Origin: Nitrospirota bacterium
GTDB taxonomy: Bacteria; UBA2233
Direction of reading: 5' to 3'
Assembly: GCA_011620345.1 (NCBI GenBank)
Contig: WOZJ01000007.1
Location: 1-7,755 of the forward strand
Length of the DNA stretch: 7,755 bases
Shown: piece by piece, positions 3,432 through 7,755 of the stretch
Position numbering within the stretch: the stretch's first letter is position 1
Layout of the letters: the number at the start of each line of letters is the position of its first letter
The notes under the pieces: generated by a model
What the model saw: the letters and a program-made list of their open reading frames with translations, nothing else
What the model was told of the DNA's origin: nothing
Database searches by the model: none
Position numbers and translations under genes: made by a program

Positions 3432-4838
3432 CTATCGGGCAAAGCGTCCTTCCTGCCTTCGGTGCCTTGAGGCGTCGTGGCAGGGGTAGCAATCTTGGCT
3501 GCGCTGTTTTTTTTCCTCTTGGGCGCAGCGGCTATGGGTTGCAAGCGGAACCCTCCAACGCTTTTCGTGGGCCTTCGAATGCAGAATCACCTGCCCGTTT
3601 TTCTCCCTTAGGTGGGGGAGTGGCTCGTTAGCATCCGTTATTCCAATACGGTCTCCTAGCTTAAGGGCAGGAAAACCCCTCCTGTAGCTTCTCACAACCC
3701 AAAACGCCTCATCGGCCCCGCTTGCAAGCGTTCGGAGCGCGGGCAACGAGGTTTTTGTCCCATGGCAGGTCTTGCAGCGAACCCTTTGGAGCGCGTCCTT
3801 ATTGCCCGTCAGGTGGCCATCGCCCATGACCTCGGTGCGGGTATGGCAGTCGATGCACTCTAACTCGACCTCACAGCGGGCGAACTGGGCCTGGGGGATG
3901 TAGTAAGCCTTCCAGCGGTCCGCATTGGGGTCCGTGATCGCCGGCCTAGGAATGTCCGCCCTGTAGAAGAATTCAAGCCTCAAGGAGTGAACCCCTTGGT
4001 TGTGACAGGCATTGCAGGCCGTATACGAGATGGCCGTCGTCATTTTGTGGTAGGGCGCATGGCCGGCCTCGTTCTTTTTGATCGCCTTGTCTTTCCCCAA
4101 ATAGCGGCCGCTTGGCCGAAAGGGGACATGGCAGGCCGCACAGCCTGAAAGGTGCCTGGCGTCGGTGTTTTTTAAATCATGGCCCGTATGGAGATGACAA
4201 AAGCTCAGGCAGTTCTTTACGAAGCGCGTTTTTTGCGGGTTGTCCTCCGGCCGAAAAGGTGCGAGCGAACTGGCTGCAAGCATGCGTTTTTCTCGGATCT
4301 CTGGGATCAGTCCGAGGGCCTCTCGGGCTGGGCTTACGCCAAACCGGGCAAGCTCGTCTTTTTGCCAGCCCAGGGCAAACGCGGCCTTGGCGATCTCGGA
4401 GGCCTTGGTGGCCATGAGTGTCAAGGGTACGCTCGCAGACGGGCTCCTTGAAGGGTTATCGGACCTTACGTGGCAGCCTTCTTTCCCGCAGGTCTTTTCT
4501 TGAACCTCAAGGGTGGCCGGGTTTCTTTTTCCAAGAAGCCCTTTGTGGGCGCGTGGCTTCGAAAGCGCAAGAGCGTTTCCTCCATGGCAGACCACGCAGC
4601 CAAACGCCCGGGTAGGGTGCGCCGGGCTGATCTCTTCGATTCCAAAATGGCAGGTAAGGCAACGCTCCGGCTTTCCTGTAAGCGTGGGCACGACCGTCAT
4701 TGGCTCTGCGCTAAAGCGTCTCCAGGGCTGCATGGCATCCTTGATAAAGACAAGAATGAGCGCGGCCCCACCAAGGACAACGCCTACGATGGCGACAAGC
4801 CTCCAGGCGTCTTTTACGGCCCATGCGAACCGTCTCAA
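3432..4838 (-). CDS. Membrane-anchored multihaem cytochrome c (nine haem motifs)
   Basis: Probable periplasmic electron carrier anchored by one N-terminal helix (about residues 12-33), serving the Rieske/cytochrome b complex encoded just upstream. Of 468 aa, nine haem-attachment motifs are visible. Seven are CXXCH (CLTCH, CVVCH, CAACH, CNACH, CIDCH, CKTCH, CYPCH), one is CX3CH (CLSFCH, near residue 210) and one CX4CH (CGKEGCH, near 117). Many extra histidines could be distal ligands. There is a long haem-free stretch between the third and fourth motifs. No ATG exists near the start: the frame opens after a TAG with TTG codons at 4853, 4844 and 4838. I prefer TTG 4838 because it overlaps the previous stop as TTGA, matching the ATGA overlaps earlier in the operon; 4853 would give 473 aa. 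It may correspond to the multihaem subunit of Geobacter cbc6/ext-like clusters; I cannot confirm this. Confidence 0.9.
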   Translation of the reverse strand: MRRFAWAVKDAWRLVAIVGVVLGGAALILVFIKDAMQPWRRFSAEPMTVVPTLTGKPERCLTCHFGIEEISPAHPTRAFGCVVCHGGNALALSKPRAHKGLLGKRNPATLEVQEKTCGKEGCHVRSDNPSRSPSASVPLTLMATKASEIAKAAFALGWQKDELARFGVSPAREALGLIPEIREKRMLAASSLAPFRPEDNPQKTRFVKNCLSFCHLHTGHDLKNTDARHLSGCAACHVPFRPSGRYLGKDKAIKKNEAGHAPYHKMTTAISYTACNACHNQGVHSLRLEFFYRADIPRPAITDPNADRWKAYYIPQAQFARCEVELECIDCHTRTEVMGDGHLTGNKDALQRVRCKTCHGTKTSLPALRTLASGADEAFWVVRSYRRGFPALKLGDRIGITDANEPLPHLREKNGQVILHSKAHEKRWRVPLATHSRCAQEEKKQRSQDCYPCHDASRHRRQEGRFAR

Positions 4839-5194
4839 GGCCAAGAAAACCAAAGCCTAAAAAAGAGCGTGGCTAAAACCCAAAAGCTCAAGAGACCGAT
4901 CCCAAGACCTTTTATGGCCGTATGTCTTCTCATCGGAAAGTATGGCAGCAAAACAAGAAAGCAAAGCGCTAGCATAGGCAGGAAAACCCCGGCAAGAAAG
5001 GGCGAAAAGATCAGCAAGAGCCCTTGGATCGCCACGAAAATCCACGGCGCTGGGGCAACTCCGCCTTGAGGGGGCCCGCCAACGATCAAGCCGGAAGGAA
5101 AAAGGGCCGCAGCGAGGGCCAAAAGCCCCAAAGCCAACAAGAATACGGCTCCCTCTCGCCTAAGAAGTTCTCTTCTTGGGATAAAACCCTTCAT
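4835..5194 (-). CDS. Cytochrome b C-terminal (subunit IV-like) membrane protein
   Basis: Small hydrophobic protein of 119 aa that takes the place of subunit IV / the cytochrome b C-terminal domain behind a b6-like cytochrome b gene. Membrane segments lie at about residues 14-36, 51-86 (one long or two short helices) and 96-116, versus about 160 aa for plastid subunit IV. The loop before the second segment (GGPPQGGVAPAPWIFVAIQG) aligns by position with the Qo-site PEWY region, but reads PAPW-I: the catalytic glutamate is absent. The start at ATG 5194 overlaps the previous stop as ATGA; a longer frame to 5248 would run into the cytochrome b gene. Its own stop overlaps the next start (TTGA). Identity rests mainly on position and on the loop; similarity is weak. 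Candidate relative: ExtQ-type b-cytochrome subunits (unverified). Confidence 0.75.
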   Translation of the reverse strand: MKGFIPRRELLRREGAVFLLALGLLALAAALFPSGLIVGGPPQGGVAPAPWIFVAIQGLLLIFSPFLAGVFLPMLALCFLVLLPYFPMRRHTAIKGLGIGLLSFWVLATLFFRLWFSWP

Positions 5195-5844
5195 AGGCCC
5201 CGACTGACCCCGCCATCCCGACGCACGCGGTAAAAGTGCCATGCGCACAGCCCGAGCGCCAAAAAAGGCAACACCCCGCAGTGGAGCGCGTAGAGCCTGA
5301 GCCCAGCGCCCTGGCCTACGGGGTCGGCACCGAAAACGAGGGCTTGGAAGATTCCGCCCAGCAAGGGAACCTCCCCCAAAAGCCCGAACGCCACCCTAGA
5401 GGCATCCATTGCCCTTTCATCGCCGATCAAGAGGTAGCCGCTGAAATCTAGAAAGAATGTCAGCACCAAAAGGCTCATGCCGATGAGCCAGTTCCCCCGA
5501 CGCGGCGGGGCAAAGGCACCCGAGGCCAGCACCCTCAGCGTATGGCCAACGAGCACGATAATCATGAGCTGGCCCGCGAAGAAATGCAGGCTCCTTAGGA
5601 AAGAGCCGTAGGCTAGGGCCTCTTCGATCGTCAAGACCGAATCAAGGGCCTCGCTTGGCGATCCTGGCTTATAAAAGGGCATCAAAAGAAATCCCGTGAA
5701 GATCAAGACCACAAAAAACCCGAAGGAAAGCCCACCTAAGCAAAGAGTGGGCCAAAGCCCCGCGGCGTCTTTTGGGATCTTTGGCGGATGGATGTGCGCC
5801 AAGAACCCGAATATCCCGTTTCGGTTTGTGCCCAGCGCCTTCAT
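5191..5844 (-). CDS. Cytochrome b (b6-like), quinone-oxidising membrane subunit
   Basis: Integral membrane subunit of a Rieske/cytochrome b complex, moving electrons across the membrane between quinone sites. At 217 aa it is the size of cytochrome b6 (about 215), with four hydrophobic helices at about 32-56, 85-107, 117-141 and 185-206. Two histidine pairs ligate the b haems: H87-X13-H101 in the second helix and H188-X14-H203 in the fourth. The X14 spacing in the last helix is the b6 pattern (mitochondrial cytochrome b has X13). C35 sits in CLGG, matching the residue and context that bind haem cn/ci covalently in b6f. The loop DFSGYLLIGDERA corresponds to the G-x-TGYSLPWDQ region but has lost PWDQ. 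Start: ATG 5844 overlaps the Rieske stop as ATGA; its stop overlaps the next gene the same way. It may correspond to ExtP-type subunits of Geobacter (unverified). Confidence 0.92.
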   Translation of the reverse strand: MKALGTNRNGIFGFLAHIHPPKIPKDAAGLWPTLCLGGLSFGFFVVLIFTGFLLMPFYKPGSPSEALDSVLTIEEALAYGSFLRSLHFFAGQLMIIVLVGHTLRVLASGAFAPPRRGNWLIGMSLLVLTFFLDFSGYLLIGDERAMDASRVAFGLLGEVPLLGGIFQALVFGADPVGQGAGLRLYALHCGVLPFLALGLCAWHFYRVRRDGGVSRGL

Positions 5845-6272
5845 AGGCGAAACTCCGGGCCGGCCTCGATGGTCAGCCCGGCCTTAAGTCGAGCTTCGCT
5901 CACCTTAAAAAGCTTTAGGCGCTTGAGGGGCCTGACGGCCGGCCCTTTGAGCACCCGACCCCCTAGATCGTATTCGCTCCCGTGGCATGGGCATGAAAAC
6001 GAGGATTCCAGCGGAACAAAACGAACAGGGCACCCCAAGTGGCTACAGCGGTTCAAAAGGGCATAGGAGCCTTTTTTGTCGCGCACAAGCCAAGCGAGCC
6101 CTTGGTTGCCGAGAAGGGGTTCTTCGCCTCCTTGGGGCTTTGTGAGGTCGAACTCCTCGAACTCGGGTACCCTCCCCTCTGGGTTAGAGCCAAGATAGCC
6201 TAAAACGAGCTTCAAAAACCCCAATGCGGGCAAGGCCAAAAGGGCTTTTACAAGGTTCCGCCTTGCAAACAT
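5841..6272 (-). CDS. Rieske [2Fe-2S] protein of the cytochrome b complex
   Basis: Carries electrons from quinol at the Qo site to a c-type cytochrome on the outer face of the membrane. The 143-aa protein shows both cluster motifs: C76-S-H78-L-G-C81 and C94-P-C96-H97-G-S. C76, H78, C94 and H97 ligate the cluster; C81 and C96 would form the stabilising disulfide. It begins with MFARRNLVK followed by a hydrophobic helix (about 7-27), a Tat-type signal anchor as in other Rieske proteins. The YDLGGRVLKGPAVRPLKRL segment is the usual C-terminal part of the domain. I chose ATG 6272 since GAAGG lies five bases upstream; the longer frame from 6335 would translate through a perfect hairpin and delay the RR motif. 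The stop overlaps the cytochrome b start by four bases. It may correspond to ExtO-type subunits (unverified). Confidence 0.94.
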   Translation of the reverse strand: MFARRNLVKALLALPALGFLKLVLGYLGSNPEGRVPEFEEFDLTKPQGGEEPLLGNQGLAWLVRDKKGSYALLNRCSHLGCPVRFVPLESSFSCPCHGSEYDLGGRVLKGPAVRPLKRLKLFKVSEARLKAGLTIEAGPEFRL

Positions 6273-6277
6273 CCGAA

Positions 6278-6282
6278 CCTTC
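6278..6282 (-). promoter_or_regulatory. Ribosome binding site fixing the Rieske start
   Basis: GAAGG on the minus strand, five bases before ATG 6272. It lies just 3' of the 17-bp hairpin (6292-6333), 9 bases away, so the hairpin could influence ribosome access. Confidence 0.6.
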
Positions 6283-6291
6283 GGGTATTCA

Positions 6292-6333
6292 GAAAGTTCC
6301 GGCCGGGGTAAAAACGCCCCGGCCGGAACTTTC
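6292..6333 (-). promoter_or_regulatory. Perfect 17-bp hairpin in the Rieske leader
   Basis: GAAAGTTCCGGCCGGGG and its exact reverse complement are separated by an eight-base loop that on the minus-strand transcript reads CGTTTTTA. The stem is very GC-rich and lies between the trihaem cytochrome stop (6382) and the Rieske ribosome site. No T-tract follows the stem, so it is not a textbook terminator. It is better read as an mRNA processing or stability element, or partial attenuator, setting different levels for the upstream cytochromes and the downstream membrane complex. A smaller dyad (AGGCC-tctg-GGCCT) lies about 20 bases upstream of it in the same leader. Confidence 0.7.
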
Positions 6334-6381
6334 ACGCAAGTAATTCAGGCCCAGAGGCCTCAAGCCAAGCAAAAACCCTGC

Positions 6382-6735
6382 CTACTTGGCCCCGTAGCTG
6401 GCCGCCTTTTGCTGCCAGTCGCTCGGATGGCACGAGCCACAGTTGAACTGCAGGTCGTCAAACGGGTTGACCATGCCCTGGTGCGCCCTGGCCTTGTCCG
6501 TCGCGCCCGGCTGGCCGGCGTGGCAGTAATCGCAGGCATCGAGGTTGGCGTGGTCTACATGCCATTTGCCCTGGTTCGAGACGGGCTTTTGCTTTTGGAT
6601 CTCATGGCAGCTCTTGCAAGAGCTCACCGAAGACCCGCAGGCAGCATGAAGAGGGCCTACTCTATACAGCCCGCTAAAAAGAACGATCGCTATACTTGAA
6701 AGAAGGAGCTTCTTCTTGAAACCCGGTGGTTTCAT
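6382..6735 (-). CDS. Small exported trihaem cytochrome c
   Basis: Periplasmic electron carrier of 117 aa with three CXXCH haem motifs: C40-KS-C43-H44, C68-DY-C71-H72 and C99-GS-C102-H103. Histidines at 59, 62 and 85 are candidates for sixth ligands. The N-terminus has a basic start (MKPPGFKKK) and a hydrophobic core (LLLSSIAIVLFSGLY) ending in HAAC, a Sec signal; cysteine 33 could be lipidated but the lipobox is poor (H at -3). The overall size and haem count recall c7-type or triheme carriers, though the spacing is different from c7 and I cannot assign a subfamily. The start at ATG 6735 gives a clean signal peptide; GGAGG is 11 bases upstream, a little far. It sits between the split-Soret cytochrome and the Rieske gene, so probably shuttles electrons within that system. 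Confidence 0.88.
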   Translation of the reverse strand: MKPPGFKKKLLLSSIAIVLFSGLYRVGPLHAACGSSVSSCKSCHEIQKQKPVSNQGKWHVDHANLDACDYCHAGQPGATDKARAHQGMVNPFDDLQFNCGSCHPSDWQQKAASYGAK

Positions 6736-6777
6736 GGCACAGTAAACCTCCATTTTTTTACAGGGCAACATTCCTTT

Positions 6778-7620
6778 CTATAGGCCTCTAGGAGGATGAT
6801 TCGACCAATCGACCTTCTCGATATCTACATGGCATGTCGTACAGTTCATCTGCGCCTTGACGTTCAAGTTGTACGCATTCTGGGCATCGACATGGCAAGT
6901 AACACAGGCCGAATATTCTCCTGAAGGCTCATAAGTCGCTAAGTACTTCCCGTCATAGTCATCGTTGATCATTTTGGCGACATGAAACGCCACGTCTCCG
7001 GCAACCTTGGCGCACCTGTCGGCCCTTTCAGGGCTGAGTGCCGTGATCGAAGGCCGTTCTTTCCTTGCACCGTTGACCCATGTGGTGACGCTGATGTGGC
7101 ATATCGGGCTTTTGGCAACCGTCTTGGGTTGATTTTTGTATTTCGCGTAGGCATCATGGTCCGTGCTTGGAAATTCCTGCTTGGAATACCAGTCGAAAAG
7201 ATCGTTTATGAGCTTTTGATACGTCAATGGATTGCCCACGAGGTTTAGTACGGCCGCAGCACCATTCAACGTGCCACAAACCGTTCCCCATCCGGCGATG
7301 CCCCCACCGCCGTAGCGGTACATATCCACGGGAAGCGTCGTAAAAGGCGCTCCGATATCGGCCTGCAAAGCCCTAACGAGTGTTGCCGCCACGGCGAACA
7401 TGCACTCTCCCTCATAAAAGTTCTCGTACGCGCTCTGCCGGATCGCAACAGGATCAAAGCGGTAAGAGCCTAAAGTCCAGGGCAGTCTGAGCGTTCTGGG
7501 CGCCTCCAGGGTTTGCGCCATACCATCTTGGCCTAAGAGCCTACCCAACCCAAAAGCCCCGCCTGTTATCACCCCTGCGGCCATCAAAAGACCTCTTCGC
7601 GAAACGTTTCCCTCAGACAT
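6778..7620 (-). CDS. Split-Soret-type dihaem cytochrome c (C_GCAxxG_C_C family), Tat-exported
   Basis: Exported redox protein of 280 aa. A twin-arginine signal opens it: SRRGLLMAAGVITGG (7-21), the type used for proteins folded with cofactors. The middle domain carries cysteines of the C_GCAxxG_C_C family: C73 (GEC), C115 in VCGTLNGA (114-121), C174 (SPICH) and C203 (DRCAKVAG), likely ligands of an Fe-S cluster. Two CXXCH haem sites lie at the C-terminus: CVTCH (239-243) and CTTCH (260-264). An N-terminal cysteine-cluster domain followed by two C-terminal haems is the architecture of Desulfovibrio split-Soret cytochrome c, whose physiological role is unclear. ATG 7620 is chosen since the purine-rich GGGGAGAGGAGAGA precedes it directly; the longer frame from 7668 would bury the Tat motif behind 16 extra residues. 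A rhodanese gene precedes it and the trihaem cytochrome follows after 42 bp. Confidence 0.85.
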   Translation of the reverse strand: MSEGNVSRRGLLMAAGVITGGAFGLGRLLGQDGMAQTLEAPRTLRLPWTLGSYRFDPVAIRQSAYENFYEGECMFAVAATLVRALQADIGAPFTTLPVDMYRYGGGGIAGWGTVCGTLNGAAAVLNLVGNPLTYQKLINDLFDWYSKQEFPSTDHDAYAKYKNQPKTVAKSPICHISVTTWVNGARKERPSITALSPERADRCAKVAGDVAFHVAKMINDDYDGKYLATYEPSGEYSACVTCHVDAQNAYNLNVKAQMNCTTCHVDIEKVDWSNHPPRGL

Positions 7621-7678
7621 TCTCTCCTCTCCCCTTTTTGGCCTAAGGAGCGCCCCTTTTGGCCTCAAGCACTTGCGT

Positions 7679-7755
7679 TTAGTAGGCTACGGGGAACCCC
7701 GCGGCCGTCCAGTTGGTCGTTCCGCCGATTAAGTCATACACCTGCGTGAATCCCT
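7679..7755 (-). CDS. Rhodanese-like protein, C-terminal fragment
   Basis: Partial gene entering from the right edge of the window; only the last 25 codons or so are present, ending at TAA 7679-7681. The visible residues, GFTQVYDLIGG followed by TTNW and AAGFPVAY, match the end of a single rhodanese domain, where a glycine-rich 'G-x-x-x-V-x-x-L-x-GG-x-x-x-W' stretch precedes a terminal 'AG-P-V'. The active-site cysteine loop lies upstream outside the window, so activity (sulfur or selenium transfer) cannot be judged. It is 58 bp upstream of the split-Soret gene on the same strand and is likely part of the same operon. Rhodanese proteins head the ext clusters of Geobacter (ExtH), which would fit; this is a recollection only. 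Confidence 0.7.
   Translation of the reverse strand, partial: GFTQVYDLIGGTTNWTAAGFPVAY

Follow-up and report, generated by a model that had tools for sequence, protein, structure and literature searches.

Among the closest described systems, the extHIJKLMNOPQS cluster of Geobacter (PMC5877670; PMC6148476) encodes a Rieske protein (ExtO), a cytochrome b (ExtP), the membrane protein ExtQ, the multihaem cytochrome ExtM, and a rhodanese at its head. Anammox bacteria also possess Rieske/cytochrome b complexes that include multihaem cytochromes (PMC12954380). Split-Soret cytochromes c, for which our literature search found no established partner, include the protein of Desulfovibrio desulfuricans (PDB code 1h21) and a dihaem cytochrome of Pyrodictium delaneyi that is associated with a membrane cytochrome b (Pyrde_1256/1257; PMC8105010). 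Rhodaneses of the CxU form are among the listed selenoprotein types (PMC13188914).

The locus analyzed here lies on a 7,755-nucleotide stretch of DNA from a Nitrospirota bacterium (the window), which is an entire contig (C42) of a 1.8-Mb genome and stops at position 7755. Positions 3432-7755 hold six complete minus-strand genes (7668 to 3432) and the tail of a rhodanese gene, all tightly packed. The neighborhood comparison covered the genome of a sister species from the same genus (the sole other genome of the phylum in the comparison), 336 genomes across many families, and 25 other split-Soret loci. In the order of transcription, the features are as follows.

7679..7755, minus strand: exported, tandem-domain rhodanese, C-terminal 24 codons and stop (96% identity over 24 amino acids to the sister copy)
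6778..7668, minus strand: split-Soret-type dihaem cytochrome c with an Fe-S domain (NF047622, PF09719, 1h21)
6382..6771, minus strand: exported trihaem cytochrome c with three CxxCH (motifs; 70% identity to the sister copy)
5841..6335, minus strand: Rieske [2Fe-2S] protein in the ExtO position (PF00355, E 8e-12; intact boxes)
5191..5844, minus strand: b6-like cytochrome b in the ExtP position (NF040969, E 6e-57, below cut-off; b6 structures)
4835..5248, minus strand: subunit IV-like membrane protein in the ExtQ position (alignment only; no Pfam or NCBIfam match)
3432..4853, minus strand: ExtM-like nine-haem cytochrome, anchored by a single N-terminal transmembrane segment (NF040943, E 5e-49)

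Family searches and motif counts thus recover all seven minus-strand features listed in the earlier note, the rhodanese as the last 77 nt only. The operon encodes neither cytochrome c1 nor cytochrome f. Adjacent genes either overlap or are separated by 7-58 nt, so that the arrangement is not by chance, and from this spacing the whole block is probably read as one transcript. A search for sigma-70 promoters in the block found none (1.5 expected by chance), and an Rfam search of the window gave no match. The left half of the window encodes GntR, DksA, Mut7-C, and phosphofructokinase and is syntenic with contig C54 of the sister genome, on which phosphofructokinase is followed directly by a second rhodanese copy.

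The sister operon (L008) runs from a rhodanese through a Tat molybdopterin oxidoreductase, a Fer4 subunit, and a b561 subunit to the trihaem cytochrome, the Rieske protein, cytochrome b, subunit IV, and an ExtM-like cytochrome. The rhodanese and the core are common to both species (81% identity for cytochrome b and 72% for the ExtM-like protein), whereas the middle slot differs, holding the split-Soret gene here and a three-gene Phs/Psr-like molybdoenzyme there. The best named family of the sister oxidoreductase is PhsA, at a score below the cut-off. The split-Soret gene was not found in the sister genome, and this genome holds no close relative of the sister molybdoenzyme (best match 32%). 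As the phylum is represented by two genomes, the "replacement" of the partner is drawn from one pair. dsrA is absent from both genomes.

The core retains the redox ligands of Rieske/cytochrome b complexes. Both boxes of the Rieske protein (CSHLGC and CPCHGS) are intact; the protein is 68% identical to its sister orthologue, and its nearest solved relatives are the anammox Rieske structures 9rk3 and 9rk4. Cytochrome b matches PF00033 (E 3e-27), and a profile search gave cytochrome b6 as its best solved-structure match (E 5e-44). Its haem ligands are the pairs His-87/His-101 and His-188/His-203, and Cys-35 occupies the site of haem ci attachment in b6f, an established trait of that family. The 137-amino acid subunit IV-like protein, which matches no Pfam or NCBIfam family, can be aligned to the subunit IV proteins encoded after related cytochromes b; neither this protein nor the ExtM-like protein has a match in PHROGs.

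The nine haem motifs of the ExtM-like cytochrome (seven CxxCH, one CxxxCH, and one CxxxxCH) form a set identical to that of its sister orthologue. The trihaem cytochrome is 70-73% identical to the sister copy at the equal operon position, and a trihaem-like cytochrome adjoins a Rieske/cytochrome b pair in one unrelated genome (L090). In another unrelated genome, a five-haem relative lies close to a Tat molybdopterin oxidoreductase (L088:7676-12711). The sister genome also contains an orphan, decayed trihaem copy with an in-frame TGA, which has an aldehyde dehydrogenase gene and rpmB as neighbors (contig C16; L086:1495-1890). At the DNA level, this copy is closer to the window copy (83% identity) than to the copy in the sister operon (69%).

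The quinol oxidation site is altered. In both species, the Qo segment of cytochrome b reads GYLLIGDERAMDA, in which LIGDE replaces the LPWDQ of the Qo site and an aspartate replaces the next aromatic residue, a tryptophan. All comparators from other genomes carry GYLLPWDQ followed by the conserved tryptophan (28/28, these being the top matches of one profile search and no random sample of all cytochromes b), and the sister's own ext-type cytochrome b has LPMDQ at this segment. The Qo motif of subunit IV is APWI in both species, compared with APWY in most comparators (the standard being PEWY or APWY). Judged from the aligned residues, the Qo change is shared and specific to this lineage. With the Rieske boxes and the two haem b histidine pairs present, homology to Rieske/cytochrome b complexes holds, whereas a standard Qo site does not, which makes ordinary quinol oxidation uncertain. 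Loss of LPWDQ with every metal ligand kept is relevant to the requirements for a working Qo site.

Rhodaneses are sulfur carriers. The window contains the last 77 nt of the rhodanese gene, encoding GFTQVYDLIGGTTNWTAAGFPVAY and a stop codon, with the gene truncated by the contig end at 7755. The tail by itself is thin evidence, and the identity of the protein is based on these 24 residues together with the complete tandem rhodanese of the sister genome (L008:17784-19001 and beyond). The contig runs exactly 77 nt into the gene, stop included, a length that an assembler might leave as overlap where it meets the boundary of a duplicated gene; in the sister genome, the rhodanese is indeed present in two copies. 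We considered a chimeric assembly at this junction and set it aside, these pointers being suggestive only.

The first active-site loop of the sister rhodanese contains an in-frame TGA (ILICA-UGA-GIRA; L008:18579-18581), and the second copy carries the same in-frame TGA (C-A-UGA-G-I-R; L075:10385-10387). Downstream of the TGA, substitutions between the two copies are concentrated at third codon positions (15, 12, and 40 at the first, second, and third positions). In both copies, the TGA is followed by the same hairpin, which has a GUUA loop, although the fold energy of this stretch is only moderately better than that of shuffled sequences (z about -2). Both genomes encode tRNA-Sec (81 bits versus a cut-off of 47). 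An in-frame UGA in the loop, a SECIS-like hairpin, and tRNA-Sec, the hallmarks of CxU selenoproteins, thus occur together for the two diverged sister copies, which are both predicted to be selenoproteins; the window copy shows the tail only.

The split-Soret protein matches NF047622 (E 3.7e-41), PF09719 (E 3e-10), and the solved structure 1h21 (E 1e-31). Its NF047622 score of 141 bits compares with an equivalog cut-off of 400 bits, so the protein is a divergent relative and no equivalog by that model. It carries a Tat signal (SRRGLLMAAG), with a probable start at the ATG at 7620. Scanning 84,980 species genomes for relatives yielded the 25 other loci, the nearest of which encodes a 38% identical protein in an Actinomycetota MAG. 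The non-haem cysteines 89, 131, 190, and 219, both CxxCH motifs, and His-191 are invariant in all 26 split-Soret sequences, and His-291 is kept in 24 of the 26. Since the invariant ligands are retained, cofactor binding is expected for the window protein.

Our leading reading, which we hold tentatively and rate a little short of an even chance, is a quinone-linked, ExtO-P-Q-M-like Rieske/cytochrome b6-type core in which the nine-haem cytochrome serves as c1/f, with an exchangeable periplasmic partner and probably a sulfane-sulfur or selenium substrate. Cytochrome b, subunit IV, and the Rieske protein would oxidize quinol, and the Rieske protein would pass electrons to the membrane-anchored nine-haem cytochrome, in place of cytochrome c1/f. 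The exported trihaem protein would carry the electrons onward, and the Tat-exported split-Soret protein would act as the final, periplasmic redox partner encoded by the operon. This terminal slot would belong to the Phs/Psr-like molybdoenzyme in the sister species. Because that enzyme takes the place of the split-Soret protein, the partner may be an exchangeable module on a conserved core.

This reading builds on the gene content, the ligands, the replacement between the species, and the changed Qo residues. It is supported by the co-directional, overlapping genes, by the orthologous core of the sister operon, and by the intact redox ligands of the split-Soret protein, cytochrome b, and the Rieske protein. 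The trihaem-like cytochromes of two unrelated genomes, found next to a Rieske/cytochrome b pair (L090) and a molybdopterin enzyme (L088), also fit the model. The CxU loop and hairpin of the sister rhodanese and the tRNA-Sec of both genomes count in its favor as well, and the anammox complexes offer a precedent for multihaem partners, as P. delaneyi does for a split-Soret cytochrome linked to a membrane cytochrome b. From these features, we infer complex formation, the direction and order of electron flow, and the substrate.

The earlier note had described an unusual quinone:cytochrome oxidoreductase with multihaem partners and no c1/f gene in the operon, and gene content and ext homology bear this out. 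Its proposed sulfur or selenium link becomes more credible through the shared rhodanese, the predicted selenocysteine, and the tRNA-Sec in both genomes, and the exported rhodanese upstream suggests sulfane sulfur or selenium as the substrate. The difference in slot content between the two sister species amounts to a natural experiment on how a single quinone-linked core is joined to different terminal reactions. In addition, the split-Soret cytochrome has a solved structure, and its location within a Rieske/cytochrome b operon opens the identity of its electron donor to experiment.

The changed Qo residues can also be read differently. Electrons may flow in the opposite direction, the rhodanese handling a sulfur or selenium species in the periplasm whose oxidation feeds electrons via the cytochromes and the Rieske/cytochrome b proteins into the quinone pool, or the complex may no longer bifurcate. 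Such an explanation, which we consider unlikely, draws on the LIGDE and aspartate substitutions that set both species apart from the 28 comparators and on the rhodanese as a sulfur carrier. However, the Rieske boxes, the four haem b ligands, and the haem ci cysteine are retained as in a working complex. Similarly improbable in our view is a bolder form of the leading reading, in which the Qo site is rebuilt, there is no classical Q cycle, and the multihaem cytochromes provide the link to an interchangeable terminal enzyme (the split-Soret protein or the molybdoenzyme) whose substrate is sulfane sulfur or selenium delivered by a selenocysteine rhodanese. If true, the split-Soret cytochrome would gain a genetically defined electron-transfer chain.

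In line with the ext resemblance raised in the earlier note, the locus might instead be a truncated ext system that reduces selenite/tellurite or metals at the cell surface, but we regard this as distinctly improbable. The core is distantly homologous to ExtO/P/Q/M, as indicated by the matches to the ExtM (E 5e-49) and ExtP (E 6e-57) families, and to this extent the likeness to Geobacter ext stands. Membership in the cluster does not. The nine-haem cytochrome scores 167 bits on NF040943 (cut-off 800) and cytochrome b 193 bits on NF040969 (cut-off 290). The ext porin, for which the earlier note proposed to look, reaches 18 bits as the best ExtI score in this genome (cut-off 150) versus 475 bits in the sister genome. 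The sister rhodanese has no NF040901 match, and a separate ExtH-like protein there scores 172 bits (cut-off 200), the window holding the tail only. By these scores, the block falls outside the ext cluster in every comparison made (ExtM and ExtP cut-offs, ExtI porin, and ExtH-type rhodanese). This genome encodes a single cytochrome b.

The sister species, by contrast, also has an ext-type operon (L009:599-8882) that comprises an ExtH-like rhodanese, an ExtI porin, ExtM, ExtN/O, a Rieske protein, an ExtP-like cytochrome b, subunit IV, and ExtS, with no ExtKL gene seen. It adjoins the molybdoenzyme/Rieske operon on the same contig and is transcribed divergently from it. The presence of an ext-type operon in the sister genome could speak for a shortened version here, but as the two systems coexist next to each other in that species, they are likely not redundant.

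The split-Soret gene is the variable element. None of the 25 other split-Soret loci has homologues of the Rieske protein, cytochrome b, the trihaem cytochrome, the ExtM-like protein, the rhodanese, or the molybdoenzyme in its flanks, which are short on some contigs. A related cytochrome b is encoded anywhere in the genome in 6 of the 22 split-Soret-bearing genomes and is absent from the other 16. The protein is usually encoded alone and can therefore work without this complex. The earlier note had made its proposal depend on conservation of the rhodanese and the split-Soret gene beside the Rieske/cytochrome b genes: a rhodanese heads the sister operon too, whereas the split-Soret gene is missing from the sister genome and has none of these neighbors elsewhere (0/25), so that it is no conserved operon member. 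Its link to the operon is specific to one genome, and that of the rhodanese is common to both species.

On these grounds, the gene could be a passenger inserted between the rhodanese and trihaem genes, with a role of its own unconnected to the Rieske/cytochrome b complex, yet we give this little credence, as the gene is co-directional, 58 nt after the rhodanese gene and 7 nt before the trihaem gene, the sister slot holds another exported redox enzyme rather than being merely empty, and all split-Soret metal ligands are retained. The GC content of the gene (0.54; GC3 0.60) is at the low end of its neighbors, and base composition gives no foreign mark.

Compared with the Geobacter ext cluster (PMC5877670), our preferred assembly of a conserved core with an exchangeable partner lacks ExtI, ExtN, ExtS, and ExtKL and adds the trihaem and split-Soret cytochromes. 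The ExtM-like gene is last here, whereas ExtM precedes the Rieske gene there, and it encodes 473 amino acids with nine motifs instead of ∼600 with twelve. The anammox complexes (Kustd1480-1485 and Kuste4569-4574) likewise combine Rieske/cytochrome b proteins with multihaem cytochromes; a role in NAD(P) reduction is proposed for them, and the part of PMC12954380 considered here mentions neither a split-Soret protein nor a rhodanese. CxU-type rhodanese selenoproteins (NF041203; PMC13188914) share the active-site loop of a cysteine, one residue, and selenocysteine with the sister copies, which differ in being exported tandem-domain proteins at the head of a cytochrome operon, with the complete form present only in the sister genome. 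The D. desulfuricans split-Soret cytochrome (1h21) shares the fold family by sequence, the two CxxCH motifs, and the four invariant non-haem cysteines at ∼34% identity; such genes normally lack the neighbors seen here, within a Rieske/cytochrome b operon. In P. delaneyi (PMC8105010), the split-Soret partner is a formate-dehydrogenase-type cytochrome b, whereas here it would be a Rieske/cytochrome b complex. The locus is a real operon of a known general type, here with an unusual split-Soret partner.
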